This document shows positions 3,959 through 64,000 of a stretch of DNA of 64,000 nucleotides, piece after piece. A model generated the notes under the pieces. The model had not been told where the DNA came from. It did no database searches and worked only from the letters and a program-made list of their open reading frames with translations. Each line of letters begins with the position of its first letter. Position 1 is the first letter of the stretch. Origin of the DNA: Buxus sempervirens (Eukaryota; Streptophyta; Magnoliopsida; Buxales; Buxaceae); NCBI GenBank assembly GCA_947561395.2, contig OX387187.1, forward strand, positions 19,511,829-19,575,828, written 5' to 3'. A program made the translations under genes and the position numbers.

Positions 3959-6331
3959 TGTTAGCACCTAATTTTTGCACCCCCAAAATGAAGGAAAATG
4001 AAAAGTCAAAACCCTAAGGGGGTCAAAAAATTGACTTTCCCAATTAAGGAAATTTGGCCATCAAACTTTATATCATTGAAAAGAGCACTTCGATACGATT
4101 CTAACGCAACTGAGTTTGCTGGAATCGGAGTCCAGGTGAGAAATATATGGCCCGGTCAAATTTCCAGAGAGCAAAAAGTTGACTTTTTGCTCGGCCCCAG
4201 TCCAACTGCCGAAATTGATCTCAATATATAGCTGGTTCCGAGCTGATTCCAAAGACATTAAGTTTGCTCAAATCGGACACCAGACGAAGAAATTATGAGC
4301 AGTTGAAATCTCAAGAAAACAGCCCGTGTGGCAAAAACAGCAGAATAAAGCAAAATAAATGAACAAATAAATAAAATAATCATATATTAATGTTTTAGTA
4401 ATATAGTTTTAGATATTTTTAATATTTTAATAATATAGCTATAAAGAATCTCGAATTTTATAATAAAATAATAATAAAATCAAATAAAATCTTGATTAAA
4501 AATCAGATTTCATAAACTGTTTGAAATCCGGCATTTAATAAACGTGCGAAACCGCACTTGAAGTACGGTTTGGTCTAAACCGTACTTCAGATACGGTTTG
4601 ATCTTCTAGAAGGTGGACGCGTGTCCTGTACGGCAACAGCTGGCAGATTTGCGCAGATTTGCACGTGTTGAATGCCAACCGCGCTTAAAGCACGGTTTTT
4701 GATTTTTTGGTGTAATCTTGTCACAACCGCACTTTAAGTACGGTTGTGACCAAACCGCACTTAAAGTACGGTTCCGTCCAATTTTTGCCTATAAAAGGGG
4801 GACCACCCCCCCCCCCCCCCCCCACTTGGAGTAAGCTGGCCCCCCTTGTTCCCCACACCCTCTCCCTGTTCCTTGCTCATCCGAAACTCTGTCCAAATGC
4901 TGTAGCACCCAATCCCAAACATTAGAATGCCCAAAATACCCTTATTAGTCTAAACTTTGCTTAAACCTTCTTCTTTCACCCATTTGACAAAAAAACCCAG
5001 CCAAATCCTGTTCAAATCATCTTGAGAAATCTATAAAGACGTGGAAGCGCTACCAAAATTGCTTGGAAGAACCACAACCTATCAAGACTAACAAGCATTC
5101 TTACTGTAAGTATTTTTTTTTTTAATATAATGAGATTATCTTCCCTTCTCTTTAAGTTTTTATGCATTTTGTTCTAACCCTCTTATTAGTTGTTTAAAGC
5201 CACAATGATCTCAAGTCAGGTTGACGGTTCCATGAAAAGAAGAGAAGAATGTGTCTTAAAGAAAAAAGACACCTTTTACCAACAATTAAGTTTATTTGAC
5301 TAACCAATCTTATGAACATATTTTACCCCTGTAAATTCCCTTCTTGGAAGTTGACTGTGGGTGACTAAGAGACAATCTCACCTCTCTAAAGTGCAAAAGA
5401 GAAGAAGAAGATGGCTTTACAAGCCAAATAAAGAAAACGGAGAATCCTGGAGATGATGGAACTACGACTGGAGTCACCGGAGACCCCTGGAAGCTTGCCA
5501 GAATGATCCCAATTGAAATCGAAGCAAACAAGTGAAACTGAGCAGCAACCGCACACACAGAACGGTTCTGACCAAACCGCACAATAAGTGCGGTCAGATT
5601 AGAAAAATGACTCAAAAATTAATTTATTTGGCCCGGTGGAACATGATCCGACCTGAACCGGCCTGAACCAGTCTTTTATACATTTTGGGCTATTTTTAGC
5701 CCATTTGAGGACTTTGGGCCTATATGGGCCCAACAAGACCACCACGGGCCCACTTGTGGGGCCCATTTTAGACCGGTCCAAACCAGGCCCGTTTTCCTTC
5801 AAACGGGCCCAAGGCCACTTGACCCAGCTAATGGGCCCATTCCAAGCCCAAATTGAATTTTAAATAAATAAAACTTAATAAAATAACCAAATGGGTTACC
5901 AATAACCCGATTGGGCCCAAGGCCCAACCATGGCAGCCCACGGGTCTTTCAACGGGACCCGGGTCCGACCCACTTCATCTAAATGAATAAGAAAGATAAA
6001 ATCAAAATAAAAGGGACCCACACCTTTAGAGGGCCCCGCCAGACCTAATAAGGAGGCATGCTGGTATAGGAAGGGTGAGATTGACTCAAAAACCAGGGAG
6101 ACCCGAGGGACCCGTCAGACCGACGGGGCGGACCGGGGTGTCTTTAAGACTTCCCCGAACCGTAACCGAGGGCTTAGCTAGATCTCTAAAAAGCCGCAGA
6201 CCAGACTTAAACCCGGTTAGGGCAAAACCGTGTTTGCCTGCACTCTCAAGCAGTGGCGACTCCGAATGTCCCGTGGCACGCACGAAAAGTGCGCCCGGTG
6301 TGCGATCTAGGCTAGGTTTTAGGTGCGCACA
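3959..6331 (+). repeat. 3' LTR of element A (2373 bp)
   Basis: Starts TGTTAGCACC right after the polypurine tract and ends GCGCACA. Full-length similarity to 13305-15691, which has its own target duplication, sets both ends. It carries a TATA box at 4790-4796 (TATAAAA), a C-run just after it, a palindrome cluster before the TATA box (4535-4775) and a second cluster at 5547-5600. Near the 3' end it holds TGGCGACTCCG (around 6253), a partial copy of the tRNA-Arg primer site inside the LTR. The same feature is seen in the B, E and F LTRs. Confidence 0.93.
4535..4796 (+). promoter_or_regulatory. Element A LTR promoter: ACCGCACTT palindrome cluster and TATA box
   Basis: About four paired inverted motifs of the form ACCGCACTT...AAGTACGGT crowd the ~250 bp before TATAAAA (4790-4796). 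The same motif returns at 5547-5600. The placement just before the TATA box suggests binding sites or hairpins in the LTR promoter; function is inferred. Confidence 0.6.
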
Positions 6332-9116: not shown

Positions 9117-9209
9117 TGTAGACACCCCAAATTGCACTACAGAATGAGAAAGTAATAAAAACATGTAATTAGAGCTTAAAACAGGTCAAAAATGCATAAA
9201 AATTGCCCG

Positions 9210-9517
9210 TATTTCATTCACGGGCCGGTCGCGCCCGAAATGTCTCTACGGTTATGCGCGCCCGTATTGGAAATACGGGCACCATTAGACCGTAAATCAT
9301 TTACGGTCACTAAAGACTCGTGCGAGTTTTATACTTCTCTCGATTTCCGAGCTTTATCTTTAGTCCAATATCCCTTTAAATGAGCGAATTATGTCTTTTA
9401 TTTGCTGAAGCCACTTTGGTTGGCTATGGTTGGGCATTATCTCTGCTTTTCACTCTATCCTGAGGATCAGGATATATCCTTCTGGACCAGCCTTGCCCCT
9501 GTGCTTGCCTATAAATA
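9210..9517 (+). promoter_or_regulatory. Element B LTR promoter: CCCGTATT and ACCGTAAAT palindromes, TATA box
   Basis: 9260-9280 is a palindrome with arm GCCCGTATT. 9288-9308 is a perfect one: arm GACCGTAAAT, one spacer base, then its exact inverse. Further half-sites lie at 9216-9250. TATAAATA is at 9510-9517. The same motif family recurs at 12155-12300, 25667-25750 and 27887-27980 within this element. Confidence 0.65.
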
Positions 9518-9613
9518 GAGGTGCGATTCTTAAGCAAAGGGCCACGAAATTTTGAAGACTCAAGAGCTCCAAGAGAAGAAAGGAATCCCTGCTGCTCTGC
9601 TTGCTCAATCCAG

Positions 9614-9619
9614 GTAAGT
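9614..9619 (+). promoter_or_regulatory. Splice donor in the LTR leader of element B
   Basis: CCAG|GTAAGT lies ~100 bp after the TATA box. The likely partner acceptor is the TTTTTGCCAG tract just before the original gag leader (13303 before the solo LTR arrived). Splicing would remove the rest of the LTR, the primer site and the tandem repeat from the gag message. The 3' LTR has the same donor at 28828. Inferred from sequence only. Confidence 0.55.
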
Positions 9620-10913
9620 CCCTTTTCCCTTTTATTTTATGTCTTCAATTCTAGAAGTAATAGGATCTTCTCTATTGCTGTAGAATAAGGCCATATTTTA
9701 TCTGGTATTCCTAAACTTGTCTCTAAGTACCTCAAGAGTCTCTCTAGCCGTAAAACGTGAAGAGAGAGCTAGGGGAAAGGGGAACAGGTGGATCCCTAGG
9801 ATAGGACCCCATATCTGTTTTTCTCTTTTTTTTTTTTATAGAATAAGGCCTTTGATTGTGTTTGTGTACCCAAACCTATCTCCAAGTACCTCAAGAGTCT
9901 CTCTAGCTGTAAAACGTGAACAGAGAGCTAAGGGAAAAGAGGACAGGTGAATCCGTAGGGTAGGCCCCCATGTGCTCTAATTTGTGAGATATGCCTGTTT
10001 TAATATCCTGATTATGTTCTAATGATTTTATTTTGAATCTGGATTAATCTTATGACTTCATGGTGATTATAGCATGAGATCCCCGTTTTTTTCCAAAATT
10101 TGGATTTTTCACACTTTGCACCTACAGCATTGTTTTTGTAATTTTTGTGATATTAGGCTAAGATTCTGGATCTATCATCATCTATGTGATAGATCTGGAT
10201 TCAGAAGCCTGAAAGGAAATTCTAGGGTTTCATGATGTGGTTTTTGAATCGTTTTTCACTTTTGAGAGAAGACCCTACGGTCTAAGTTCTCCCATTTTGG
10301 TGTTCTTTATCAATGTAAGTCTTTTTGGTTTTTATTTTCTGATTTAACGTGAAATTTGGGCTTTATCTATGTCCTGGACTGTTCAAGTTCAATTTTGAAA
10401 TATTTCATAAAAATCATATTTTTCTAGATTTCTAGAATTTGACTTGAAGCCAGATTTTTGGATGTTTCACTTTAGATTGGTTTTATATGATTTTATCTCA
10501 ATTTTGTTTTAATCATGAAACCCTAGGAATGGTATGATCATATTTGAAAGTTCTGGATCAATCAGACTATTCGTATGAAAAAACCATACATGTTTGTCTT
10601 TTTTGTGATTTTTTGTGATTTTCATAGCAAGCCTTTTTCCTTTATTTTAACATGAACAATACCTGGCAACCACCTTGTGTGGATGAATAGGGGTGCCTAA
10701 CACCTTCCCCTGTTCATAACTTAATCCCCTTACCCATCTCTGGTTGTTTTTTTAGGAGGGTTATTTTTACCCTAAATTTGCCTTTTTGTGCTTATTTGAT
10801 ATTTTGGTGTCCATTCACACCTAGATTGAATGGTGGCGACTCTTTATTTTTTAATGAATCCCACGTGATGATCAGGGAAGTCATTAAATTGATTTTTTCC
10901 CATGTCTCACAAC

Positions 10914-10931
10914 TGGCGACTCTGCTGGGGA
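10914..10931 (+). promoter_or_regulatory. Primer binding site (tRNA-Arg)
   Basis: TGGCGACTCTGCTGGGGA starts two bases after the 5' LTR. It is complementary to the 3' end of a plant tRNA-Arg, the primer used by Ogre-type Tat elements. Confidence 0.9.
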
Positions 10932-12430
10932 CTTGTGGATTTCAGCCTTTTGGTGTTTAGTTCATGTTTTGATATTTTTGGATTTGCTTGCTATTTTGTG
11001 TTTTTAGCATGTTATTGTTTTGCTTGCTGTTTGGTGTTCTTAAGCATGTGGGATATGTTTTAAATCTGATTTATTGCTTAAGAATTCATGGGGGTAGAAA
11101 CATGCTTAATTCTGATTTATAGGATTGTTTCTAGAAATATGCGTAGGGGAGGTTCGTTTTGCTAAACCATGCTGATTCATTGCTGTATTTTTTATATAAT
11201 AGCATGTTTTAATTTTCAGCATGATCTCCATGATGTATTTTGGCTATATATCGTGATCCTATGATTGCATGATTTGGACGATTTTTGTGAGCATGTTTAG
11301 GTGCTATAGGGTTGCTTGTTTACTTATGTTTACTTACTTTAATATACTCCCTATATGCCTTAGTTTGTTTATGCATGGCTGCGAAAAGAGTGGCAAGGGT
11401 TGGGACGTTGTGAATGCACCCTATTTTTACAATGCACTGTGCACATTTTATTTTTTTACACAGCCTACCTATAACCTATGGGAAGTTGAACCCGAATGCG
11501 TGTAACTTGGCGCACCAAGGTCGTTACTTCGGAAAGCGAAAGTGAAAACATTCACCTTAGAACTTTGGGCCAATGATGTGATGATAATGTGGATCTGGGA
11601 TTCTAGTCATCATTAGGCTTGAGTTCTAAGTTGCCATTAAGCCAAACCCAAAACCCCTACGCTTGAAGGTGGAGATACACGTTTTTGGCTAAAATACACA
11701 ATTACGTGGGGATATGGGTTTGTAATTGAGGGAAGGCCGTTTGCATGGCTTACAAACCAGGGCATAATGTGGATGCCATATTGAAGGTAAACAAGGTAAC
11801 CTTAATTTTTGCATTATTTTCATCTCATAGGGGTGTCATGGTGCCCATTGGTTTGGGGACAAAATTGGTCCCAAATATGCCTGGTTCTTAAGCATGGTGT
11901 AGCCCATTAGAAGAGTCTCTAACTCTGTTTAGGATCAATCCTACCCAATGTTTGTACAAGAGGCAACAAAAGGGTACCAAAGTATGAGTATGGTGTCAAT
12001 TTGGAGGGAACATGTGCCCTCCTAAGCATGTATTTTTGCAAATATGTCAAAGTCCACTTTGGGACAGCTTAGAGGCCTAGAGTGGGTGAACCGTATGTTT
12101 GGATGAGCAATCAAAGTGATCAAACCATGAAAAAACTGAAGAAACATAAAGCAGCTCCGTAAAACTGTAGTTTTAATACGGGCTGGGCTCGCCCGTAGTA
12201 ACTATACGGTCTAGGCTCGCCCGTATTAATCATACGGTCACGTCTTGCTCATAATTTAAATACGAGCACAGCCGGACCGTACTGTGTATACGGTCTTAGC
12301 GGATAATTCAATTTTAATCAGTTTTTCTCAACTAAATCCTGTTCCTATAAACTTTAAATGATGAAAGGGAGATGAGTTTGAATAAAATGCTTCAAAAAAA
12401 ATGTAAATAAATAAATAAATAGAAAATCTT
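10932..12430 (+). other. 5' untranslated/leader intron region of element B
   Basis: About 1.5 kb without a supportable gene. It includes a cluster of B-type CCCGTA/ACGGT motifs at 12155-12300. Confidence 0.7.
12155..12300 (+). promoter_or_regulatory. Internal palindrome cluster of element B (leader)
   Basis: Repeated ATACGGG, CGCCCGTA and ATACGGT half-sites in both orientations. They match the LTR cluster of the same element but lie ~1.3 kb downstream of the LTR, so they are not explained by LTR duplication. Confidence 0.6.
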
Positions 12431-13140
12431 TGGGCCTTTGAAAGCCTTTGAATTTCAGATCTTTTTCAAAAACACCCCTGGGCCTCTGAAAGCCTTTGAA
12501 TTTCAGACTTTTTCCAAAACAATCCTGGGGCCTCTAAAAGCCTTTGAATTTCAGATCTTAACCTTTTGGGCCTCTGAAAGCCTTTGAAATTCAGACTTTT
12601 TCTAGAAAAATCCTTGGGCCTCTGAAAGCCTTTGAATTTCAGATTTTAACCTTTTGGGCCTCTGAAAGCCTTTGAATTTTAGACTTTTTCCTCTTGGGGT
12701 CTCTGAAAGCCTTTGAATTTCAGATTTTAACCTTTTGGGCCTCTGAAAGCCTTTGAATTTCAGACTTTTTCCCAAAAAAATCCTTGGGCCTCTGAAAGCC
12801 TTTGAATTTCAGATTTTAACCTTTTGGGGCCTCTGAAAGCCTTTGAATTTTAGATTTTAACCTTTTGGGCCTCTGAAAGCCTTTGAATTTCAGACTTTAA
12901 CCTTTTGGGCCTCTGAAAGCCTTTGAATTTCAGACTTTTTCTAAAAACATCTCTGGGCCTCTGAATGCCTTTGAATTTCAGATCTTTTTTAAAAATATCC
13001 TTGGGCCTCTGAAAGCCTTTGAATTTCAGACCTTTTGCAAAATACCCCTAGGCCTCTGAAAGCCTTTGAATTTCAGACTTTTTCCAAAAATACTCCTAGG
13101 CCTCTGAAAGCCTTTGAATTTCAGATCTTTTTCTCTTATG
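12431..13140 (+). repeat. 16-copy hairpin tandem repeat in element B
   Basis: Sixteen units, each carrying the core GGCCTCTGAAAGCCTTTGAA followed by TTTCAGA. Unit length alternates between ~40 and ~48 bp, depending on a short (TTTTAACC) or longer A-rich linker. Each core can fold: CTGAAA and TTTCAG pair around a 9-nt loop. Tat elements such as Retand are known for tandem repeats in untranslated regions. Confidence 0.95.
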
Positions 13141-13304
13141 GGACCTGTTGGAAGCCCTAGAATATTCCAACAATTCTAAAAAAAAAAAGAAGCAAATAAA
13201 AAAAACAAATCCAAACTCGTGTTCACCCAGCTTGCACATAGGCATTCTTAGGTAGGTGAAGGAGATTAAACGGGCATTGATATATTCTTTTTATTTTTGC
13301 CAGG
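13141..13304 (+). promoter_or_regulatory. Leader end with pyrimidine tract and splice acceptor, split by a solo LTR
   Basis: The stretch ends in a pyrimidine-rich run followed by TTTTTGCCAG|G, a good 3' splice site. The nested solo LTR duplicated CCAGG here, so the copy next to gag (15692-15696) now lacks its pyrimidine tract. Confidence 0.5.
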
Positions 13305-15691
13305 TGTTAGCACCTGATTTTTGCACCCTTAAAAATGACAAAAATCAAAAGTCAACTAAAAGTCAAACTTTGAAGGGGTCAAAAATTGACTTTTCCAATT
13401 AAGGAAATTTGCCCATCAAACTTTATATCATTGAAAAGAGAACTTTGACATGGTTCTAACGCAACTGAGTTTGCTGGAATCGGAGTCCAGGTGAGAAAGA
13501 TATGGCCCGGTCAAACCTCCATAAAGCAAAAAGTTGACTTTTTGCTTGGCCCCAATCCAACTGCCAAGCTTGATCTCAATAGATAGCTGGTTCCGAGCTG
13601 ATTCCAATGACACTAAGTTTGCTCAAATCGGACACCAAACGAAGAAGTTATGAGCAGTTGAAGATTCAAGAAAACAGCCCGTATGGCAAAAAAAGCAGAA
13701 TAAAGCAAAATAAATGAACAAATAAATAAAATAATCATATATTAATGTTTTAATAATATAATTTTAGATACTTTGAATATTTTAATAATATAATTATAAA
13801 GAATCTCGGATTTTATAATAAAATAATAATAAAATCGAATAAAACTTTATTAAAAATCAAATTTCATAAGCTGTTTGAAATCCGGCATTTAAAAAACGTG
13901 CGAAACCGCACTTGAAGTACGGTTTAGTCTGAACGCACTTCAAATACGGTTTTGATCTTCTAGAAAGTGGACGCGTGTCCTGTACGGCGACAGCTGGCAG
14001 ATTCGCGCAGATTTGCACATGTTGAATGCCAACCGCACTTAAAGTGCGGTTTTTGTCTTTTTAGTGCAATTTTGTCACAACCGCACTTCAAGTACGGCTG
14101 TGACCAAACCGCACTTAAAGTGCGGTTCCGGCCAATTTTTGCCTATAAAAAGGGGGCCACCCCCCATTTGGAGCAAGCTGGCCCCCCTTTCGTCCCCACT
14201 CTCTCCCCCTGTCTTCAACTTGTCCGAAGCCTTGTCTAAGCTCTGTCCCTCTCAAAACCCAATATCTGAATCCCCAAAATACCCCTACCTTGCTTAAATC
14301 TTGCCTAAACCCTCTCCTTCCACCATTTTGACAAAGGAACCCATCAAACCCCTGCCAAAACCAACTCAAGATATCTGTAGAGACGCGGAAGCGCTGCCAA
14401 ATTTGCTTGGAAGGACCACAACCTATCAAGACTAACAAGTAGTCTTACTGCAAGTATTTTTTTTTTACAATGAGATTGTCTTCAATTCTCTTTAAGTTTT
14501 TATGCATTTTGCTCTAACCATCTTATTAGTGTTTAAAGCTACAAGGATCTCAATTCAGGATGATGATTCCATAAAAATAAGAGAAGAATGTGTCTTAAAG
14601 AAAAAAGACACATTTACCAACAATCAAGCTTATTTGACTAACCAATTTTAATGAGCCTATTTTACCCCTGTAATTTCCCTTCCTTCCCTTCTTGGAAGTT
14701 GGCTGTGGGTGACTAAGAGACAATCTCACCTCTCTAAAGTGTAAAAGAGAAGAAGAAGATGGCTTTACAAGCCAAATGAAGAAAATGGAGAACCCCGGAG
14801 ACGATGGAACTACGATTGGAGTCACTGGAGACCCCTAGAAGCTTGCCAGAATGATCCAGACAAAAATCGGCATGAAAATGATAATTTGGGCAAAAAACCG
14901 CATACACAGAGCGGTTTGGCCAGAACCGCAGTACATCTGCGGTTCTGACCAAACCGCACTGTGGGTGCGGTCAGATTAGAAAAGTAACTTAAAAATTAAT
15001 TTATTTGGCCCGGTTGAACCTGATTCGACCTGAACCAGTCCCTTAAACAATTTGGGCTATCTTAAGCCCATCTTTGGACCGTGAGCCCAGATGGGCCCAC
15101 CAAGATTCCCCGGGGCCCACCTTAGACCGGCCCATACCCGGCCCGTTTTTTAACAAAACAAGCCCCAAGGCCACTTGACCCGGCTAATGGGCCCATTCCA
15201 ATCCCATTAAACCCAAATTGAATTGTAAATAAATAAAACTTAATAACCAAATGGGTTACCCAATAACCCAATTGGGCCCAAGGCCCAACCATGGCAACCC
15301 ACGGGTCTTCCAACGGGACCCGGGTCCGACCCACTTTATCTAAATAAATTAGAAAGATAAAATCAAAATAAAAGGGACCCACACCTTCAGAGGGCCCCGC
15401 CAAACCTAATAAGGAAGCATGCTGGTCTAGGAAGGGTGAGATTGACTCAAAAACCAGGGAGACTCGAGGGACCCGTCAGACCGACGGGGTGGACCGGGGT
15501 GTCTTTAGGACTTCCCCGAATTGTAACCGAGGACTTAGCTAGATCTCTAATAAGCCGCAGACCAGACTTAGACCCGATTAGGGCAAAACCGTGTCTGCCT
15601 GCACTCTCAGGCAGTGGTGACTCTGTAAGTCCCGTGGCACGCACAAAAAGTGCGCCCGGTGTGCGATCTAGGCCAGGTTTAGATGCGCACA
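13305..15691 (+). mobile_element. Solo LTR of the element A family nested in element B (2387 bp)
   Basis: Runs from TGTTAGCACC to GCGCACA, flanked by CCAGG on both sides (13300-13304 and 15692-15696). It aligns with the element A 3' LTR over its full length. There is no primer site, coding region or second LTR, so it is a recombination product. TATA box at 14144-14151; palindrome clusters at 13895-14135 and 14895-14975, using the ACCGCACTT motif of the A family. Confidence 0.95.
13895..14151 (+). promoter_or_regulatory. Solo LTR promoter: ACCGCACTT palindromes and TATA box
   Basis: Same arrangement as in element A's LTR: inverted ACCGCACTT/AAGTGCGGT pairs run up to the TATA box. A second cluster with ACCGCA and GCGGT motifs lies at 14895-14975. 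Confidence 0.6.
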
Positions 15692-15748
15692 CCAGGTACC
15701 AATACACTTGCAATCATAGCTCCTCTAACCAAATCAAGAGCTCGCGCC

Positions 15749-18700
15749 ATGAATCCCATTGAGAACGAAGCTGATGCTCCTCATCCAAATGTTGCCCTGC
15801 TCCAAGAGCAAGTAGCAGGACTAGCCCGAATGCTAGAGAACATACTGTCCGTGCAGGCGCAACAAGTGCAACCCCAACAAGTGCAGGCCCAAAATCAAGC
15901 ATCCACTTCCAACTCTGCACCTCCTCCCAAAATCAATATTCCACCTCCAGTTCAACCAATTCCTGAACCCGTCTATGAACCCACCCCTGAACCTATACTG
16001 ATCAGGGATGAGACAGTTGAGTCAGACAAAGCTAAGGAAAAGGAAAGGATGAAGGAAGAAGTTGAAAGGAAGTTCCTGCACAAACTAGAAATGATCCAAG
16101 ATGAACTTAGAGAAGTAAAAGGGGTAAGCAACTTCGGGGGCACCAATTTTGAGGACTTATGCCTATACCCCAATGTTAACCTGCCAGCTAAATTCAAATG
16201 CCCAGACCTAGACAAGTATGATGGCACAGGATGCCCCATGAGCCACCTGAAGTTGTACTGTGGTGCCCTATGCCAGTTCGGGCGAGATGAAGGTGTTTTG
16301 ATTCAACTCTTCCAAAGGAGCCTGACTGGAACCGCTTTAAGGTGGTTCGCCACTTTGGACCATGGAAAGATTAGAAGATGGAAGGACCTAGCAGATGCCT
16401 TCCTGGCTCAATACCGGTTCAATTCAGAGATCGTGTCAGACAGGTACGACGTAATGAAAATGAGCAAAGGAAGGGATGAGACTGTAAGGCAGTATGCCAA
16501 GAGATGGAGGGAGACAGCCTCTCAAGTTAGGCCACCTATGCTAGAGCAGGAGATGATTTCCACCTTCATCAGCACTTTGGGTCAACCATTCTACAGCCAT
16601 TTGGTGGGTCAGACCACCACTAATTTTGCTGCCTTAGTCCAAGTGGCTGACCGAATTGAAGACAGGATCAGGTCAGGTAAGATAATTGACCACTCTGCCA
16701 TGGTTAGTCAGCAGGACCCTAATCTGAAGAAAGGAAGCGGGCTGAAGAAGAATGGGAACAAGAAAGAAGGGGAGGTGAACATGGTACAGCCACCATTTGG
16801 TCCTAACAGGCCCATACAAATCAACATACTTGGTCATTTTCCTACTTCATCTGTTCCATCTACCCAGGTCCCTATGAGGGTTAATGTTCTAGCAGCACCC
16901 TCAGACCCAAAAAGGATTTTTACTAAGGAGGAAAAGGATGCCTACTTCGCAGCAAGGAGAAATAGGGTTTTCACCCCTATTCCAATGACTCCTTCTCAGT
17001 TGCTACCCACTTTATTGCAGGCAGGGTATATCACCTTAAAAGAGCCCAATCCGAATGCATCTAAGGGGAGAAATTATGACCCCTTCACCACTTGTGATTT
17101 CCATATGGGTGCACATGGGCACCCTACTGACAAGTGTTGGCCTTTGAAACATACTATTCAGGATTTATTAGACCAGAATACCCTGTCTTTCAATACAGAG
17201 GCTCCCAATCCTCCAAGAACTGATATTGGACAAAACCCGCTGCCCCAGCATCATGGGGTAGGCCCCTCTAATGTCATAGGGGTCATCTCCTCTGATAAAA
17301 TAACCTTTGACCCATATCAATTAATTGCTCCTATAGGGACAACGGTCAAAGTGTATTTTGACAGAAGAAATGAAGACCAAGAAGTAAATGTAATTTCAAA
17401 AGGGAATGATAGTGCTGCAAAGAACATTAGCTCTTCTCTGGACCGAGTCTCGTCTCTCATGGCCCAAATGAACATTGCAAAACCCCCTTTGGTCATCAAT
17501 TGCAGTCCATCCACCTTTACTTCACCCATTTAGTCCAAACCACCATTGTTTATAAACTGTGACCCTCTTAGTGCATCAGTCACTTCTGCAACCCCCCAAC
17601 CAAAACAACTTCCACCATTGGTTGTTAATGTTCCCCTTACTCAGACTTCCACAGCCAAGTCTAAACTTCCTCCATTAGTGATAAATGTCCCTAAGCCTTC
17701 CTACTCTGAATCGGCTGTACCATGGAATTACAGTGAAGCATTTACCACTACATTCCCTGCAGCTGAAAGCATAGAAGAAGTAAACCTCATGACAAGGTCA
17801 GGAAAAGGTATAGGGGAGGAAGAAAAACAGAAAGAAGTGAGAAAAGAAAAGAAGAAAGAGGAGAAAAATAAAGGAAATGCCAAGGTAGGGGAAGATGCCC
17901 CTCAGGTAGTTGACAGTGAGGCTACTGAACTCATTAAGATCATAAAAAAGAGTGAGTTCAATGTTGTTGAGCAGTTAAACAAGGTCCCTGCCCAGATCTC
18001 AATACTGGGTTTATTGTTGAATTCTGAAAAACATAGGGAATCTCTGTTGAAGGTACTTCAGGGGGCCCATGTGCCTAAAAATATTGAACCAGACCAACTA
18101 GGCCGGATGGTTGGGCAGATATTATCCCATAATGTTATAACCTTTTCTGAGACTGAAATCAGCCCATTAGGGTACCATCATGTTGATCCTTTACACATAG
18201 CTGTGCTCAATAAGGGTTGCATGATAGCCCGGGTCTTGATTGATAATGGGTCGGCTCTGAATGTCTGCCCATTGATAACCTTTGTTAGGCTCGATCTGGA
18301 GAAAAATAAAATCAAATAAAATGGAAGAATCATAAGAGCCTTTGATAGCTCTAAAACACACTCCCTAGGGGAGGTTGAACTGCCGGTCACAATTGGACCG
18401 TATATTTATAACATCACATTTGAGGTGATGGATATACCTGCAACCTTCAACCTACTCCTAGGAAGGCCGTGGATTCATACAGCTAGGGCTATACCATCTA
18501 CCCTCCACCAGAGAGTTAAATATATTAGAGGGCAAAAGGTGATTACTGTCCTAGCTGAGAATTTGGTTCCTCCCATGTGGTCCCCTGATGTACCCTTTAT
18601 AAACATGGAAATGACTGCAGACAAGTTGACATTTCACTCTTTTCAATTTGAAACTGTCAATTTTATACCTGGGGGGTATCAGGAAAAAGAAGGAAAGTTG

Positions 18701-19348
18701 ACCTGTGTTGAGAAAATGGTCAAGAATATGCTGGGAACATACAATTTCCACCCTGGAAAAGGTCTAGGGGTTAACCAGCAAGGAAGAATAGAACCGGTAG
18801 AAGCCAAGAAGCTGGTTCACAGAGCGGGATTGGGGTCCAAATCAAGAGTTTGGAAAGGACAGAAGCAGGAAGAAGGCATGAAATTCCCTCACATTAGGGA
18901 AACTTTTCCAAAGCTTTCTCATATGATTCAGCTGTCTCCTCCTCAGGATCAGTCCAAACCACCATACTATATTGTCAACCCTTTTCAAAAGCCTTATGTC
19001 CCTACCTTGCAACCATATGTTCCACCTCCACCTACCCAAGCATTGGTTGAGCCTGAACCACAGGCAGAGCAGGAGCAAGACTTTTTTTAGGACATTAGAG
19101 CCTTTTTTGCCATGACTGAAGGCAACAAAGAAGGAGCAGAGGAGCTACCTTTTATTGATTGGGCTGCAATAAAAGTTCCATCTGGGACCAGCCCTACAGA
19201 AGAAGCAGGCGAGGTAACTCACCCAGTACTGGTGATTTCAGATGCGGATTCTGAGCTTGAGGAGCAGGCTTGTATCCCTACCCCAGATTCTTTTATTCTG
19301 AATAATTGGGAGGAAACTCCCCTTACTTTTGAAGCCGCGTTTGTTTGA
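15749..19348 (+). pseudogene. gag-pro: Element B gag-protease, broken
   Basis: The likely start is ATG 15749; the in-frame ATG at 15683 lies in the solo LTR. An N-terminal coiled-coil and Gln/Pro-rich region leads to the retrotransposon gag domain (~16140-16680). A cysteine/histidine cluster of the Tat gag type follows (CDFHMGAHGH, ~17091-17165). After a charged linker comes an aspartic protease with IDNGSALNV (~18235-18265) and LLGRPWIH (~18450). Gag forms the particle; the protease cuts the polyprotein. The frame carries TAG at 17531, TAA at 18317 and TAG at 19088, then ends at TGA 19346; the pol part continues in another frame. Translation between the stops stays in family-like sequence, so these are mutations. 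The 17531, 19088 and 19771 TAGs fit CAG-to-TAG decay. Confidence 0.9.
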
Positions 19349-22300
19349 CAAACAGACATGGCTTCCCAAAAAAAACTCCATTAGTGGAAGGCCCTTTTCC
19401 TGAAGGTTTTAATGAGCCTTCGTCTTTAGGAAAAGATTTTTTAGAAGGCTCTCAAAAAATACAAAAAGATTTTTCAATTTTTTATAGAAAAGATAAAGTT
19501 TTCAAAAAGGTCCAAACCATTTATGAACCATATAAGCAAACGGAATTGGATCGGGTTGAGTATGACTTCGACCTCGAGCTCAACTTTGACCAAATGGGGG
19601 TTGAAGAAGAGACCGAGGATGAAGAAGACGACCCTCCAAAAGAAATCACATATCAATTAGAGCGTCATGAAAAGGGGGTCCAACCCAATATTGAAGAGAC
19701 CATACCTGTAAACCTAGGGACCGAAGAGGACGCACAAACAGTGAAGATTGGGGTATGCCTATCGGAGGTATAGCGGGATGAAATGATACGGTTCTTAGCT
19801 GATTATAAAGATGTGTTCGCTTGGTCTTATCGAGACATGCCTGGATTAGACACAGACATGGTTGTACATAGGCTACCAATTCTGCCATATGTTAAGCCAG
19901 TTAAGCAAAAATTGAGGAGGTTGAAACCTGAATGGACATTGAAGGTCAAAGATGAAGTGGTTAAGCAATTTCAAGCCGGATTCTTGGCGGTCTCCACATA
20001 CCCTGAATGGCTTGCGAATATAGTACCAGTACCAAAGAAGGATGGAAAGGTCAGGATGTGTGTAGACTACAGAGACTTGAATAAAGCAAGCCCAAAGGAT
20101 GATTTTCCACTTCCACACATAAACATATTAGTAGATAACACTGCAGTACATAGCATGTTCTCATTCATGGACAGCTTCTCAGGGTACAATCAGATTAAGA
20201 TGGCTAAGGAAGATCAAGAGAAGATAGCCTTCATTACAACTTGGGGTACCTTCCACTACACTGTCATGCCATTTGGGCTTAAGAATGCAGGGGCAACCTA
20301 CCAGCGGGCCATGACAACATTATTCTATGATATGATCCATAAGGAGATGGAGGTCTATGTGGATGATATGATAGCCAAATCATGTAAAGAAGAAGACCAT
20401 TTGATCAACTTGAAGAAGGTATTTGACAGACTCAGGAAATAAAGTCTAAGGATTAACCCTGCAAAATGTGTCTTTGGGGCTACATCAGGAAAATTGTTGG
20501 GATTTATTGTAAGCAGAAAGGGAATTGAGATTGACCCAGCCAAAGCTAAAGCAATCATTGAAATGCCATCACCTAGAAGGGAAAAGGAAGTTCGTGGTTT
20601 TCTTGGAAGGATTCAATACATAAGCCGATTCATAGCACAGCTTACTGCTATCTGTGAACCAATTTTCAAAATCCTAAGAAAGAATAACCCGACGGTCTGG
20701 AATGATGATTGCCAAGAAGCCTTTGACACAATAAAGGAGTATCTATTGAACCCACCTGTGCTAGTGCCACCAACCCCAAGAAGATCACTAATCCTATACT
20801 TATCAGTTTTGGAGACGTCAATGGGATGTGTTTTAGGGCAGCATGATGAGACAGGTAGAAAGGAAATGGCGATTTACTACCTAAGCAAAAAGTTCACAGA
20901 ATATGAAGCAAATTATTCCCCTTTGGAAAAGACTTGTTGTGCTTTAGTATGGGCAACTCAAAGACTGAGACACTATTTCCTTAGTCATTCCACCTTATTG
21001 ATATCCCGAATGGATCCTTTGAAGTACTTGTTTGAAAAACCAGCTTTAACTGGCAGAACAGCAAAGTGGCAGTTGTTACTATCTGAATTTGACCTCACCT
21101 ATATCACACAGAAAGCCATTAAGGGTCAAGCCATTGCTGATCACTTAGCTGCACATCCTCTACCAGAATACCAACCTTTGAAGACCAATTTTCCTGATGA
21201 AGAAATACTGTTCATAGAAGAAGAAGAAAATGAAAGCTCATGGCAAATGTTCTTCGATGGGGCCGCCAATATGAATGGAAATGGAATAGGGGCTGTTTTG
21301 GTCAAGCCAGATGGGTCGCATATCCCAATCGCAGTAAAATTGAGATTCCAGTGTACAAACAATTTAGCAGAATATGAAGCATGTATAATTGGGTTACAAG
21401 CAGCCTTAGATCATGAAGTAGAGAAACTTGACGTATATGGAGATTCGAGTCTTATCATCTTCCAAACAACTGGTGAATGGAAGACTAAGGATCACAAGTT
21501 GATCCCCTATCACCAGTATTTGGAAGAAATAAGCACCAAGTTCACTCGAATTTCTTTTAATTATATGCCAAGAGCCAAGAACCAATTTGCAGATTCTTTA
21601 GCAACATTGGCTTGAATGGTTAGTATGCCAGAAGGTGTTGATATTAAACCACTAGAAATTGAAATTAGGGATGAACCTGCTTATTGCCTTGTTCTAGAAG
21701 GGGCATCAGAGGAAGAAGTACCATGGTTCCAAAACATTAAGAATTTCCTAAATGATCGAAGTTTGCCTAAAAATGTCACTTCTACAGAGAAAAGGACAAT
21801 ACAGAGGTTGGCAGGTCAGTTCCTACTAAATGGTGGGCAGTTGTACAAGAGATCACACAATGATATCCTACTTAGATGTGTTGCCAAGAATGAATCAGAA
21901 AGGCTAATTGATATGGTACATGGAGAAGTTTGTGGACCCCATATGAACGGGCACATGCTTGCTAAGAAGATTCTGCGATTGGGATATTACTGGTCGACTA
22001 TGGAACACGATTGCTATATACATGTCAAAAGGTGTCATTTATGCCAAGTATATGCTGATAATAAGAATGCACCTCCAAGTGCATTGCATAATATGACATC
22101 TCCATGGCCCTTCTCTATGTGGGGCGTAGACATCATTGGAATGATCTCTCCAAAGGCATCAAATGGACACAGATTTATACTGGTAGCAATCGATTATTTT
22201 ACCAAGTGGGTAGAAGCAGCTTCGTATGCAAACATCACAAGTAGTCACGTTCTTAAGTTTGTAAAGCACAACATCATTTGTCGCTATGGTTTGTCAAGTG

Positions 22301-22971
22301 CCATAATATCAGACAATGCTTCGAACCTTAAGAACAAGGATATGAGGAAAATGTGTGAACAGTTTCAGATTACCCATCATAAGTCAGCTCCTTATAGACC
22401 AAAAATGAATGGGGCAGTGGAAGCAACAAATAAGAACATAAAGAAGATCATTCAAAAGATGGTAGTGAGTTTCAAGGATTGGCATGAAATGCTGCCACTT
22501 GCCCTACATGCCTACAGAACCTCAATTCTGACTTCTACAGGGGCAACCCCATATTCCCTAGTCTATGGAATGGAAGCAGTGTTACTAGTGGAAGTGGAAA
22601 TACCTTCACTAAGAGTGCTGATGGAAGCTGAATTAGAAGAAGCTTAATGGATACAGTCAAGACATGATCAACTCAATTTAATAGAAGAAAAGCGTTTGAA
22701 GGCGCTTTCTCATGGCCAATTGTATCAGAAGAGGATGGCTAGGGCTTACAATAAGAAGGTGAAGCCCAGAACTTTCCAAGAAGGAAATTTGGTATTAAAG
22801 AAGATCTTACCCTTTTTGGAAGACCCACGTGGAAAATTCAAACCAAATTGGGAAGGGCCTTATGTTGTCAAGAAGGTCCTATCAGGAGGTGCTCTCATCT
22901 TAATAGAAATGGATGGGAAGGATTTTCCTGAGCCAATTAACTCTGATACAGTAAAGAGATATTTTCCATGA
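19349..22971 (+). pseudogene. pol: Element B pol (reverse transcriptase, two RNases H, integrase), broken
   Basis: Frame 1 relative to base 1, shifted from gag-protease at ~19346. Domains: an acidic linker, reverse transcriptase (~19880-20450) with the active-site YVDD at 20356-20367, RT-linked RNase H (~20750-21130), plant-type second RNase H (~21238-21615), integrase zinc finger (~21890-22060), integrase core (Asp 22129, Asp 22312, Glu 22420; DD35E) and a GPY-type C-terminal region. In-frame stops: TAG 19771, TAA 20440, TGA 21613, TAA 22645. All catalytic residues I checked remain, so loss of function comes from stops and the frameshift. In Ogre relatives an intron lies between protease and RT; the shift at 19346 might mark its remains, but I see no clear splice pair. 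Confidence 0.92.
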
Positions 22972-23887
22972 ATGAATATTACTAGGAAATGATCTGAGGC
23001 CATCTTTCCTTATTTCCCAAAATTTTTATCCCTAGTCAAGCCAATTTGAGCATGTTCGTCTTCTTTGATAAACCTAAGCTGGACTTACAGTTTTATACTG
23101 GGGCAAAGCCAATAGGGGCAAAGCCAATAGGGGCAAAAGGAGAAAAAAAATAAAGAAAAGAAAAATAATGGCAAATGAAAGCCAAATACAAGGAAAAAAG
23201 GGAAATGGGATTAAAATCATCATGACTGTAAGTCCGGTTGACCTATTTTCACACTTAGAAAATTTTGAGCCTTTAATACCTTTTATTTCATAAACCGAGT
23301 TTAGCCTTTGTTTCGTCCTATTCTTAAGCCCTCTTTGATTTTAGTATATTCATTCAAATATCAGAGTAATATTGGTGATGACGGAATACAGAAACCAGCC
23401 CTAGTGAAAACTATAATTGGCGCTAGGGGCAATAGGGGCGTGCAAAAAAAAATCAAAGGATTGAGTTGATCGTGTGGTCCAAGTTGAAGACAGCATGAGC
23501 ATAAGCAATTGAGCAGATTAGCAGGGTTAGTCATGGAGGAAAAACCATTAGCGGATGATTCTAAAGGTTGTAGGATAAACAGATTTGGTCTCTCCCTATT
23601 GATTGGGCCACCCTTTTCATTATGCAACCTGATTTTAATTCCTTTGATTATATGTGATTAAGTGCTTTGGATTAGTTTTAAAAAAAAAAACTATACTTTT
23701 GGCCAGTGATGAGAAATCAAGTACTTTTCATAAAACTTTTGTTTTTACAAGCATCTGAGAATTCTGAGGCCAATAATATAAAACCTACTTTTGTATTAAA
23801 TCCTTTGTCTTTCCACTATTGGAGTTTACTTTTGTACAAAGGTATGAAAAAAGAAAAAAGAAAAAAAATGATGAATAATAAAAGAAT
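22972..23887 (+). other. 3' untranslated region between pol and the antisense genes
   Basis: No gene seen. Blocks shared with element A's 3' region (TTTCGTCCTAT, GGCGCTA) are present. The 3' end of the antisense PMD gene meets it at 23888. Confidence 0.7.
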
Positions 23888-43950: not shown

Positions 43951-43990
43951 AGGAAAAAAGCCTTTTTTCCAAATTTTAACACAGGCAATA

Positions 43991-44072
43991 CTTATTTACA
44001 TGTAATATCGTTTAAGTAAATGTCCTCGTATTTTTTAATCTCCATTTACTTAAGATATTACATGTAAATAAG
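43991..44072. repeat. Inverted repeat in solo LTR F
   Basis: Arms of ~30 bp (CTTATTTACATGTAATATCG... against its inverse) around a ~20-base loop, followed by a poly-C run (44077-44093). Confidence 0.85.
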
Positions 44073-45745
44073 CAAACACCCCCCCCCCCCCCATTTGAAT
44101 CCATTAAAAATAGTTCCAGACCCAAATTCCAAGTGAACAAAAAGTCAACTTTCCAATTCTAGGCAAAATTCCGATTTTTCAGGTCTGGAAAAAAGGTTCA
44201 ATATGTTAAAACCAAGGTATTCGTCAAGATTTAAAATCTCAAAAAATTCTTTTATGCAATAACATAGCTAAAAACCTGATTACCGGGAAAAATTATCTTG
44301 AAATCTAGCTTTAAAAAATATTTCATTTTCTGGGGTCAAAAGTCAACAAAATTCAATCGGAAAAAGTTTGACTTTGCACAAAAGATTGAATTCGGGCCTT
44401 TTCCTTTTCCGTTTTGGATTCAAATGGGTTAAGTATCTCAAACCCAATGCAAAGAATTGAAAATTCCAATAAAATATTTCTCTCCTTCAAGATTTATCAA
44501 AAATCGTGCAATTTTGGGGGTGTCTACACCTCTCTCCCCTTTTCTTTTCTGTTTTTAAATTTTAGGGTTAGTCTTTTCTTCTTCCTTTCTTTAGATTAAA
44601 GGCCTGATTGTGATTGAAACCCCAAACCTATTTCCAAGTACCTCAAGTCTCTCTCTAACCATAAAACGTGAAGAGAGCGCTAGGGGAAAAGAGATAAGGA
44701 ATGGATCCCTAGGATAGACCCCTATGTGTTGTAATCCTTGATATGTGTCTTTTAATACTTTGTTTGTATTATGTGATTGTTTATTTCCAAAATATGGAGG
44801 AATACCATGGATCTATGCTGTTCATAGCATTAGATCTCATTTTCCTCATAAAGTTTTGATTTTTCACACAACTACACCCACCGCATGGTTTTCTTTCTTT
44901 TGGTTATTATTAGGCTAGGATTTTGGATCTACCATGATCAATATGGTAGATTTGAAATCAGAAGCCTTAAAGTAACCTCTAGGGTTTCATGAGGTGATTT
45001 TCAAGTTATTTTAATCTTTGAGAGAGGATCCTATGGTCTAAACTATCCCTTTTTGATGTTTTTCATCAACATGGGTGTATCTGGTTTAGATCTCTCAACT
45101 AATGAGAGATCTGGACCAGATTTGTACCCTAGATGGTTCAGGTTTAATTCCTCAATATTTTGTTAAAAGATTTTTAACTTTTATTATGTAGTTCCAAGAT
45201 TTCAAAGATTTAACTTAAAGCTAGTTTTTCTTTAGGCTTGTTTTCTTTATCTTGATTTTACTCAATCATGAAACCCTAGAAATGGTGTATTCATTGGAAG
45301 GATCCAGAATTAATTGGATCATTCATATGGAAAAACCATACATCCTTTTTTGTTCTTTTTCATACTTTTGATTTGATTTTTATTAGTAAGCCTTTTTCAA
45401 AACATGACCAATACTTGGCAACCACCTTGTGTTGATGAATAGGGGTGCCTAACACCTTCCTTTATTCATAACCTAATCTCCTTACCTATTTCTGGATTTT
45501 ATTTTTAAAGTGGAGTTACTTTTAACTCTAATTTTGCCTTTTTTTCATTTTATTTGATTATTTTGGTGTCCATTCACACCTTAAATTGAATGATGGCGAC
45601 TCCTCTTTTTTATGGATCCCGTGTGATGATTAGGAAGTCATTGAATTGATTTTCCATGTCTCACAGGCACAGCTTGACAGGCATGGGCTAAACGTGCCCA
45701 TGCCATGCCAAACTGGCCTGATAAGCACTCCTATATACCTGGGCT

Positions 45746-53485: not shown

Positions 53486-53519
<34 letters not shown>

Positions 53520-59180: not shown

Positions 59181-61539
59181 TGTAAGCACCCAAATTTTGA
59201 TCAAACCAAAGAAATCTGCTAAAAGACAGCAAAACAGCTCAAACCCTAAGGAATAAAAATTGTCCTTTTGATCGAGTGCTAATTGTCCACCATACTTTTT
59301 CCCAATGATTAGGAAATTTCGACATGATTCTAATGCAACTGAGTTTGCTCAGATCGGGGTCTGAATGAAGAAGATATGAGCCGGTCAAACTTGAGGGGAG
59401 CAAAAATTGACTTTCTGTTAAACCCCAGGTCAGTTACTTAACCCTATCCTAATGGATAGAGGACTCCAATACGGTTCTAATGCAACTGAGTTTGCCAAAA
59501 TCGAAGTCTTGATGAAGAAGATATTAGCAGTTGAAGTTTTCGGGCAGCAATGCCGGAAACTGCACACGTGGCACAAGAACTGCACACGTGGCAGGAAACG
59601 CAGGAAAATATCTCGAGGGTCAATTTGTAAATACCCAAAATCTGCAAAATATCTCAGGGATTAAACCAAAATTGCACATGGGGCAATCTGCAGTTATCTC
59701 AAGTGTCAAATCGGTCAAATCCAGGGGCAATCTATAAATATCAAAAATATTGGAAGAATAACCGGAATTAATTTTCGGTTATACACAAAATGTGTATAAC
59801 CGGAATCCAATTTCGGTTCATAAAGTGAAAATCCGAATCTTCTGACAGATTTCCCGACAAAATCTTGGATTTTTCATGATTGAATGTCGGAAAAGGGTGT
59901 AACCGGAATTAAATTTCGGTTACACATAAATATAGTGTAATAATTTCGGTTATACTAGTTTTGCTTCATAACCGAAATATAATTTCGGTTACATATTTTT
60001 TGTCTATAAAAGCTGCTCAGCAGCTCATTTGCAAGGGGTTAGCCATTTTTGCTGTTGGAGCTCCCCCTACCTTGCTCAGCCACTCCTTCTCTACCCCCTC
60101 AAGCCTTCTCTAACACCCCAAACCCCTTGCTAACCACTCAAAACCCCTTCTCACTCTCTTTTTCTTCACTTTTGAGACTTGGAAGGAGCTTTTGAGCACT
60201 TGGTGCTTGGTGGAGAGGAGCTCAAGCTGCTGTGGAGGCTTCAAGTGGATTCCATCACCATCCTAGGAGATTTTTGACCCTAAGGTAAGACTCCCCATTG
60301 TGTTTTATTATACATATATGAAAATGGGAGTGATTTGAGTGTATTGTTCTATTTTCCTTGTGTTTCCCGCTGATCCTCCTTTTTGAGCATGTTTTCTCTT
60401 CATCCCCCACTTCTTCTCTCTCTTTTTCTTCACGAGAATATGATCCCATGGTAAGGGGAAGGGCCGAATTTCGAAAAGAAGGGAGGAGAGTCCATGGAAG
60501 CATTCTTTAAGTCCACACTTAAGTGTTCTACGAATGGATGGCCTCACATGATTATTTGAAAGGGGAGCAGGTTCCCCTCTTCCCCTTAAATCCAATGTAT
60601 CCCCTTAAAACCCTCGTTATGCTTTCTTTATTTGCATATTAACTTAGGTCATGATGGTTTTGTTTTACATGCCTGCTATACCATGAATCATGCATGCCTA
60701 GGATTAGAAATCTCACATGTATGCTTTTGTGTGGCATGATCCCTTTCCCCTTCATTCCCAAAAATCCCAAAGGGAATTAGCCAAACGGGGCTCCCCCCTT
60801 TTGCCTGAACTTTCGTGGGCCCACCTAGTGGCCCACACAGCTTTCCAGCATCCCTAGGGGTCCCAGGGATCAATCCCCCCTCAAAAAACCCAGAAAAAAG
60901 TGTTTTCTGTGTTTGCCCGAAAACACAGTTCGGGCAAACAGTGTTCTGTGCATAACCGAAATTGAATTTTGGTTATGCAGTGAATACAATATGACCGAAA
61001 TTAAATTTCGGTCATACTGTATTCTTGGTATAACCAAAATTTAATTTCGATTATACCCTGTAAACCCTAATTTTGGGGTTTTCAACCCTTTAGCCACTTT
61101 CCAATCATTGTTTGAACAAACCAATTAGCCCAATAGGGTTTCGGGTCAACCCGAGACCCAGCATGGGTCTTGGACCCAACGGGTCCAACTTGAGAACCGT
61201 GGGCCTTCCAACGGGGCCCACCCAGTCCGACTCATTCACTTGAATTTAAGAAAGATAATTAAATAAATCAAGTGGGCCACACCATTTGAGACCCACCAGA
61301 AAGCCCAATTTGAAGCATGTCGGCTAGGTTAGGTGGTTTAGCTATGACCATGGGCTCGGGCCTATCGGGCCCAGCTCTCTCCAAGGGAATCCCATAAACC
61401 AAAGGACAGGGTCCAAAGCCCTAATCCACTATTGCCTTGGGCTTTCAAGCCCAGACCTAGGTAATGGGCCCCAAGCCCATGCCTAGCTCGCTTTGGCTCA
61501 AATAAATCAAGATAAATCAGGATCATTTGGCAACCATGT
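59181..61539 (+). repeat. LTR D of a Tat-type element, truncated on the right
   Basis: TGTAAGCACCC start. The backbone shares blocks with the A LTR (ATTCTAATGCAACTGAGTTT, and GGGCCCACCC before a GATAA run). TATA box at 60005-60011, splice donor after CCCTAAG (~60284). AACCGAAATT palindromes occur at 59760-59995 and again at 60945-61065. The right end meets a reverse LTR at 61540. Confidence 0.75.
59760..60011 (+). promoter_or_regulatory. LTR D promoter: AACCGAAATT palindromes and TATA box
   Basis: Pairs of the type AACCGGAATT...AATTTCGGTT crowd the 245 bp before TATAAAA. The same motif returns at 60945-61065. Confidence 0.6.
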
Positions 61540-64000
61540 TGTTACCCACCCTGTGCGGGCGTGGAAAACGTGGCACGGGGTAATTCAGAGTCGCCACCGC
61601 CTGATGGGGTACAGGCGGACACCTGGGTGCCTAATTTTGTCTATTTATGGCTTTTGGTCTGCGGTTTGAGATTCTAAGTTTGTTTCTCGGTTGCGGTCTA
61701 GGGAAGTCCGTAGACACCCTAGTCCACCCCGTCGGATGACGGGTCCCGTGGTTCCCTGATTTGAGTCAGCTTTCTCACTTGATTCTCACCCGATTCCTAA
61801 TCCAGCAGGTATTTAAGTTAGATCTTGGCGGGACCACCTGAGTGGTGTGGGTCCCTTTTAGTTGATTTTATCTTTGCTTAACTTAAATTGTCTGAGTCTG
61901 ATTGGGTGGGCCCCTTTGGAAGGCCCACAGTGTCCTTGGCGGGCTTGGTTTAGCCCATGTACCCTTGGTGGGCTTCTGTCTAACCTAGGAGGCCCTGTGG
62001 GCTTAGGTTAGATGAATTGGTTTTATATTAAGGTTCAGGTTTGGAGGTTAAGTGCTTTCCATGCAAAGGTGGGCCGGATTGGTTTGTGGGCCCCTTGGGT
62101 GGGCCCACATGGTGGCCAAGTAATTTTATTTTATCTTTTTAATTTGCCACAATGGGCTAGTCACTGGGCTTGGGGCCCGTGATCCAGGTTTTGGGCTTGA
62201 AAGCCCAGTTCCTTGAAGTCTAGGGCTTGCACCCTAACTTGGTTCGGTTAGCGGGCTTTGGCAGGCCCGACAGGCCCTAACCCTTGGTCTCGGCCAAACC
62301 AGGCAACTCATACATCCATCCACACATCCAAATTCGGACGGGCCACATTGGGCTTGGCCCGTCTGGTTCAATTAATTCGCTTTACTTAACTTGTTTAATT
62401 GCATGCTCTAGGGTTCATTGGGCTTGGTGGGCCCCATTGGAAGGCCCACAGGTGTTCCGAGTTGGACCGGTGGTCTAGGTCCCAAATTGGGTTTCCGGGC
62501 CACCCGGAAACCCTATTGGTTCAATTGGTTTGGTTTAGATTATCACAAAATTCAGCAAAACATCAAAAAAACACATTTCTGTGTGTATCCGGCAACTCAG
62601 GCCGGACAGACATGGTCTGCAAGTGATCCAGCCTGAGTGGCCGGATACACAGGGACTGTAGGTGATCCGGCCTGAGTGGCCGGATACACCTAGGCCACAG
62701 GTGATCCGGCCTGAGTTGTCGGATCACCTTAAAATGGGCTTTTTTCGGGGTTTGGCCATTTGGGATGGTTTTCTGGGCTTCCTAGGAGGCTTTCTAAGGT
62801 TGTGTGGGCCCCTGGATGGGCCCACGCTGGTTCAGGTGTGGGGGAGAAGCCTCATTGGGCTTCTCTTTAGGACTTTTTGGCACAAGCCAAGGGGAAAGGG
62901 GAGTGGGCAGTTGTTCCCTTCCCTTTTGAGCCATCCACAGCAATCAAACAGGGACCATGCATCCCTGTTTAGGTCTTATGATTCCACGCAAAACAAGCAA
63001 ACAGGGGTACGTGTCCAATATAATGTAGCAACTAAGCCCCTCATGCATGCACTAATCAAGAGATAAAAGCTGGCTGTGGGTGAGGGTGCAGCATCCTACC
63101 AAGGGAGGGGTTAGACATGCAACGGGGTATCAGGGGACAACAAACCACATGGAGGGGGTGAGCATGCACCCAAGGGTGGCCGGGCTAGGTCTGGCCTTGG
63201 ACTTAAGGCTACTGGGATAGCAACAAACAGGGGAGGTCTTGGTAAAGGGGACATGGTAATGCTTCACCTCATGCTATATATGTAAAACAATCAAGGAATG
63301 ACGATGATCTTTCATTATTCCAGAAAGTAAAAGAACTCATGCTTGATCACGTGGAGCCGCAAGTTAAAGGGGGGTGGGATCATGGAGCATGCTATGACCT
63401 TAACCAAAACAACAAGTAATACACAAAAAACTACAGCCAGCAATAACAAGAAGACCCATACCCAGAAGAAATACGAGAGAAAGTGAGAGAACAAAAATAA
63501 AAAAGGAATCAAGAAGGGAATTCGGGGGTTATTTAAGGGGTACATGAGATTATATCAAAAAGGAACATGCTCCTTCTTAAAACTACTTGATACAGACCCA
63601 TGGACAGTAGCTAAAGAGACTAAAAAGGGGTGTGAAAATAGGCCCCTATGCCTCTCTAATGACCCTACGTGGGCCTTTTGCCGATGGTGGTTCTCATGAC
63701 AAAAAATAGGACACATGCATGCTAAGAACACCCTGGTAGTGAGCTCATGCAAAAGAGGAGGAAGGAACATGAAAAGACAGTAGAAAAATTCAGTTTTAAT
63801 ATATGTTGAATACAATGGGATAGGGAGCCTCACCTGGCTGTTCTTGCACTCCAAAGCCAAGTGGAAACCCTCCTTGGATGATAGACAGCAGCTGGAATCA
63901 CCTTCTCTTGACAGCAGCAGCAAGGTTTCTTCCTAGTGTTATGGTAGGGAGGAAGAGGAAGGAGACAAGAAGTGGGTGGGAGCAACTTAGAGGTGGTGTG
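61540..64000 (-). repeat. LTR E of a Tat-type element, reverse orientation, running off the window
   Basis: On the minus strand it ends GGGTAACA (61540). The last kilobase aligns in blocks with the end of the A LTR, including GGCGGTGGCGACTCTGAATT. A palindrome cluster with GTATCCGGCC/GGCCGGATAC lies at 62584-62730, in the place of the second cluster of the A LTR. A splice donor CAGCCAG|GTGAGG is at 63834/63833. The start of this LTR and its TATA box lie right of the window. Confidence 0.75.

Follow-up and report, generated by a model that had tools for sequence, protein, structure and literature searches.

The 64-kb window analyzed here (the whole stretch, positions 19,511,829 to 19,575,828 of Buxus sempervirens contig OX387187.1) consists of nested Ty3/gypsy retrotransposons of the Tat type, in a 676.5-Mb plant genome. 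Long terminal repeats (LTRs) of these elements carry arrays of short palindromes, and the palindromes of every family in the window (A to F; G and H come from other loci) follow one frame of 21 bp, nnCCG-N11-CGGnn, in which the CCG/CGG core is constant and the remaining half-site letters vary by family. Arrays of the same frame lie upstream of an accessory gene with DUF7745 and PMD domains, and in three families the motif at the gene promoter is that of the LTR. Together, these sequence observations suggest that each family encodes a protein recognizing its own DNA. The palindromes would be operators of a VANC-like element-encoded regulator, most likely the PMD/DUF7745 protein, in an LTR retrotransposon; we infer the binding and regard this reading as evenly balanced.

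The window contains 41 matches to CCG-N11-CGG, whereas other spacings have a median count of 3, and among 64 trinucleotides at 61 spacings this is the top-scoring inverted pair (21.9, next 8.5). Base rates were taken from shuffles and from the rest of the window: 40 dinucleotide shuffles of the window gave a mean of 2.0 and a maximum of 6 occurrences, which bears out the expectation of the initial annotation of this DNA that the palindromes are denser than in shuffled sequence, and 38 of the 41 matches fall within arrays, leaving three weak strays (6118, 8660 and 15479). A chance or compositional origin of the arrays is rejected by the shuffles and the spacing comparison. Among neighboring palindromes at most 80 bp apart (n = 59; window plus 16 loci), 33 spacings measure 27-28 bp and another 11 measure 38-41 bp; a 28-bp array period is frequent, with 38-41 bp found in D and F, and the two periods (28 and 39 bp) would differ by about one helical turn. 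The symmetry of D, E and F palindromes extends a few bases beyond the 21-bp frame.

Half-sites read AACCG[C/T]ACTT in A, GNCCGTA in B, GNCCGCATTT in C, AACCGRAATT in D and ATCCGGC in both E and F. The motifs initially assigned to these families were recovered by exact search: ACCGCACTT in A (4551-4754) and its solo LTR (13905-14108), CCCGTATT and ACCGTAAAT in B (9206-9299 and elsewhere in the element), AACCGAAATT in D (59809-60954) and TATCCGGC in E (43794-43941) and F (62586-62679). The LTRs of A and D do each contain the two clusters described, and each pair of clusters keeps a single motif class (Table 1). Comparing half-sites of the window at 7 non-core positions gave 3.78 differences within families and 4.85 between them, a gap reached by none of 300 label shuffles (on a loose site list that includes degenerate sites), in agreement with the expected contrast between families. 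Across the genome, each of 30 A LTR copies examined has AACCG sites within a cluster. Strict sites are of the AACCG type in 100 of 100 cases in cluster 1 and in 52 of 54 in cluster 2, the two exceptions sitting in nested foreign LTRs (an E LTR at locus L005 and a family H LTR at L010); 10 further strict sites, 5 of them AACCG, lie outside the clusters of these copies. At L005 the E-type LTR is inserted within an A palindrome of array 2, at LTR position ~1566; at the corresponding position L030 has an ordinary array and nothing more.

The view that all these LTRs share a common backbone had to be given up. ACTGAGTTTGCT is found exactly only in A, its solo LTR and D, and there are two backbones, one starting with TGTTAGCACC or TGTAAGCACC (A and D; the end part of F aligns with it) and another starting with TGTAGACACC (B, C and E). 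The related claim that the motifs are private to families holds insofar as 30 of 30 A LTR copies carry the A motif, but strict privacy is rejected: A and G nearly share one motif class, and E and F share another across the two backbones, so the term has to be softened. Family H (L010) has a B-class motif, yet its end part aligns with A and F. Since motif classes recur on both backbones (A with G, F with E, H with B), operator-protein modules may have been exchanged between families, or families may converge on a few codes.

The PMD/DUF7745 gene of B lies on the minus strand, between pol and the 3' LTR. Its first open piece matches DUF7745 (7.6e-20) and PMD (2e-9), the second PMD (9.8e-4), and a TATA box at 25641 (minus strand) is located between the upstream array and the ATG. 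Family A has a homologous open reading frame (ORF; 39% identity over 193 amino acids to B) in sense orientation between the 5' LTR and gag; in the three A elements read, the arrays are located in the LTR. A genome search with DUF7745 yielded at least 118 scored matches, as listed, out of 5751 candidates. Eight loci chosen from the listed matches by profile range and frame length, blind to sequence and not at random, all have upstream arrays. Their 23 strict sites all fall within the first 500 bases; shuffling these loci 300 times gave a mean of 0.33 sites and a maximum of 2. Arrays are also present at two of three loci picked likewise (L081 and L082). In total, 15 of the 15 antisense-type PMD genes examined (the eight, L081, L082, four among the DUF7745 matches listed and the B gene of the window) are preceded by one or more strict sites no farther than 520 bp upstream of a conserved codon stretch, L073 and window B having one each plus degenerate ones. 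Three family G loci (L040, L048 and L055) have an extra three-palindrome array ~2.2 kb past the one that precedes the PMD gene; in L055 it occupies 3234-3320 of the element strand, and no promoter was recognized beside it. Searches for remote relatives retrieved no homologs of the B PMD piece in a large protein database at 1e-3, no relatives of a four-sequence PMD alignment in viral contigs and no solved structure for the A PMD up to E 1; a single-sequence fold of the B piece (mean pLDDT 32) was not used.

The gene-promoter motif matches the LTR motif in families B, C and G. In family C, GNCCGCATTT is present both in the LTR near L073 (L080, 77% identical to the C LTR of the window) and in the gene promoter of L073. 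In family G, the LTR near L071 (L079) has five sites such as AACCGCACTGTGTATGCGGTT, and the gene promoter ~2.9 kb away has AACCGTTCTGTGTATGCGGTT. Matched families have a mean mismatch of 2.81, lower than under any of the five other assignments (3.49-4.38), and none of 1000 site-label shuffles was as low as the matched assignment, the C LTR site set including degenerate sites. Because sites within one element are not independent, this match amounts to three events, not 33. Promoter and gene are, moreover, linked; the argument rests on shared letters at separate places of one element.

Table 1. Elements, LTRs, palindrome arrays and antisense genes in the window
Feature	Position	Strand	Remarks
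A 3' LTR	3959..6331	+	end set by homology to solo LTR; repeat pair with 13305-15691
A array 1	4550..4773	+	five strict palindromes, AACCG[C/T]ACTT; ends 16 bp before TATA box at 4790
A array 2	5547..5595	+	two strict palindromes, AACCGCA class
Element B, whole	9117..30113	+	LTRs 9117-10911 and 28327-30113; target duplication GTACC
B 5' LTR array	9205..9308	+	GNCCGTA class; 27-28 bp period
B 5' interior array	12177..12295	+	GNCCGTA class; TATA-like sequence ~50 bp downstream
A solo LTR, nested in B	13305..15691	+	duplication CCAGG; arrays 13904-14127 and 14896-14972
B antisense PMD/DUF7745 gene	24036..25599	-	two open pieces, 25599-24826 and 24830-24036; ATG 25541
Array upstream of B PMD gene	25666..25744	-	B class; one strict site (25693-25713) and degenerate ones
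B second antisense gene	25958..26572	-	exons by eye
Array upstream of B second antisense gene	27884..27977	-	B class; two strict sites and degenerate ones
B 3' LTR array	28419..28522	+	partly decayed
C solo LTR, split by E	41236..45665 (41236-41741 + 44534-45665)	+	imperfect duplication AGCAC/GGCAC
C LTR array, decayed	near 41340-41426	+	GNCC[G/A]CAT class
E solo LTR	41742..44528	-	duplication CCTCT
E array	43795-43947	-	ATCCGGC class; four strict sites
D LTR, cut by F	59181..61500 (right limit approximate)	+	
D arrays	59760-59990, 60915-61052	+	AACCGRAATT class
F LTR, extends past window end		-	
F array	62587..62724	-	ATCCGGC class; 39-bp period

These observations can be accommodated in a scenario where each palindrome joins two 10-bp half-sites, both with CCG as their core, that a dimeric DNA-binding protein would recognize, and the arrays are placed beside promoters. 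The binder would most likely be the PMD/DUF7745 product of the element itself, whose gene lies close to the 3' LTR in antisense orientation in families B, C and G, but in A between the 5' LTR and gag in sense orientation. PMD is the best candidate because this accessory gene is common to A, B, C and G, being shared by A and B despite its differing place and orientation, while the second antisense gene of B has no convincing match in the three A elements searched. The product would regulate two promoters, the one in the LTR and the one driving its own gene, as an activator or, by countering methylation, as a VANC-like anti-silencing factor; it may also act as a repressor. Should PMD specificity shift, the sites of the family would shift too, and families would cease to cross-activate. 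In plants, CCG can be methylated in both CG and CHG contexts, which makes a link to silencing plausible; the CCG-core operator may sense or block silencing. The full scenario, a self-encoded operator system of Tat elements in which a dimeric PMD/DUF7745 protein reads CCG-N11-CGG, the other letters forming a family code that can change, and governs the LTR as well as the gene that encodes it, is proposed tentatively, as somewhat more doubtful than probable.

Several observations weigh against assigning the palindromes to PMD. The gene is known for families A, B, C and G and for neither E nor F, and none was found in 4.4 kb of one D copy; L038, tried as a possible D-type PMD, was dropped, because neither an LTR start nor any palindrome lies in the 3.9 kb ahead of this ORF. 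L083, the third of the additional loci, is a diverged sense-type gene with no array in ~0.6 kb. Close to sense-type PMD genes, multiple sites are absent from all 23 loci scored (of 25 among the matches listed, over at most 1.5 kb); 10 of these loci have a single site. Linked promoters and genes co-vary by descent anyway, and the families compared number only three. Proteins of G and B are 71-80% identical and their motifs differ, whereas those of G and A are 34-39% identical and the motif is nearly common; the motif does not track PMD phylogeny. Finally, in the 30 A copies conservation of the array windows does not exceed that of the LTR start, and in some of them CCG has become CCA or CTG through CpG decay after insertion. 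The lack of better conservation fits such decay and gives no sign of selection on single copies; strong selection on the sites after insertion is unsupported.

Alternatively, the palindromes might bind host transcription factors, the families having diverged to exploit differing host factors or stresses. Tnt1 of the Ty1/copia superfamily offers a precedent: its subfamilies diverge in the LTR promoter region (U3), the rest staying alike, and exploit different host factors or stresses; we know of no element-encoded partner in Tnt1. The position of the arrays upstream of TATA boxes fits this explanation, as does the AACCG/CGGTT half-site of A, D and G, which we take to resemble a plant MYB site. 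However, a single CCG-N11-CGG frame underlies six motif classes, some of them unlike MYB sites, and the agreement of LTR and gene-promoter motifs within an element is not something that a common host factor requires. We consider host factors an unlikely explanation.

That the binder is another protein of the element, for example integrase or whatever the second antisense gene encodes, appears improbable. The second antisense gene of B does have its own upstream array, but a tblastn search of three A elements that carry arrays gave no convincing match to this gene (best E 0.5), and the family C region holding it (L078) is without an array.

The palindromes could also be by-products of local duplication, RNA hairpins or sources of small interfering RNAs with no protein partner at all; some arrays do register as 28- or 39-bp tandem repeats, the copies decay and are not specially conserved, as described above, and arm identity is slightly in excess at A positions 8 and 10 and B position 7. 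When arms were re-paired at random within families (unique sites: A 53, from a set filtered for AACCG half-sites, B 26 and G 23), identity was nonetheless close to that observed at most non-core positions, and in G the observed identity falls below chance at positions 9 and 10. The arms thus vary largely independently, with mostly no compensatory changes between them, which disfavors an RNA hairpin and fits better the two half-sites of a dimer operator. Since, in addition, the same frame occurs in arrays upstream of genes on either strand, and neighboring copies in D and E are unequally spaced with different flanks, so that simple duplication is not the source of all copies, a partner-free origin is very improbable.

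The initial annotation had likened the motifs to those of VANC proteins, which are encoded by Mutator-type VANDAL transposons of Arabidopsis and, according to the available text of PMC5735166 and PMC10398659, bind short family-specific motifs in their own DNA, protein and motif coevolving. Its observation is partly confirmed and this interpretation partly supported; features that it did not describe are the 21-bp frame shared by the families, the periodicity of 28 bp and the arrays that lie within B or precede PMD genes. In both systems there is an element-encoded protein (here a candidate binder), non-coding DNA of the element contains family-specific motif arrays (A and G sharing a class here), and motifs at several places of one element change together. 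In favor of the analogy are the encoded PMD/DUF7745 protein, the arrays upstream of all antisense-type genes examined and the LTR-to-gene match in three families. Against it, the premise of one backbone was wrong, the elements are LTR retrotransposons with gag, reverse transcriptase, RNase H, integrase and LTRs, not Mutator-like elements, and the motif is a fixed-frame 21-bp palindrome, as opposed to the 9-base same-orientation motif given for VANC21 in the available text of PMC5735166. The PMD proteins of A and B match DUF7745 and PMD, and neither matches DUF1985 up to E 1.

Comparable accessory ORFs occur within the Tat clade (Ogre/Retand type), which is marked by a second RNase H (aRH) between RNase H and integrase (available text of PMC6317226). 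In B, RT_RNaseH is followed by RVT_3 in one frame and by rve in the next, and an ORF outside gag-pol, typical of Tat, is present as PMD/DUF7745, antisense in B and sense in A. PMD is present in 57% of Ogre elements (PMC6317226), and predicted DNA binding led to the proposal that the antisense TRP28 ORFs of Retand have a regulatory role (PMC11963269). As here, these are accessory ORFs outside gag-pol, often antisense between pol and the 3' LTR; operator arrays and an LTR-to-gene motif match are, in contrast, unreported in the accessible portions of these two articles. Host PMD proteins MAIN and MAIL1 have been linked to transposon silencing and to the DOWN promoter motif (available text of PMC7156037). 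They are products of host genes, and the likeness lies in PMD proteins tied to transposon silencing and to a promoter motif. No description of these palindromes or of a PMD operator was found in titles and abstract openings of the literature, with few subscription journals covered.

Other features of the window include a tandem repeat of 40-48 bp units in B (12427-13133), between the 5' interior palindromes and the nested A solo LTR, and a CC-NB-LRR (coiled-coil, nucleotide-binding, leucine-rich repeat) resistance-type gene at 47979-51272 with a long open frame of 1097 codons without a stop. In the region 6350-9100, a minus-strand ORF (7436-8023) has weak matches to PMD (5.4e-4) and DUF1985 (6.4e-3) and is flanked by arrays of GGTACC-containing units (8178-8353 and 8683-9011), resembling a VANDAL-type arrangement. 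A second array of GTACC-containing units of 21-23 bp, like those around 8178-9011, lies at 53400-53829.

If the proposed operator system is real, sequence-specific self-recognition, described for Mutator-type VANDALs, would extend to plant LTR retrotransposons, and the PMD accessory ORFs would gain a job. Because the operator code can be read from sequence, joint change of protein and DNA could be tested across many natural copies. Such a system may help to explain how large elements amplify without waking each other, and would offer a way to learn what MAIN, MAIL1 and other host PMD proteins recognize.

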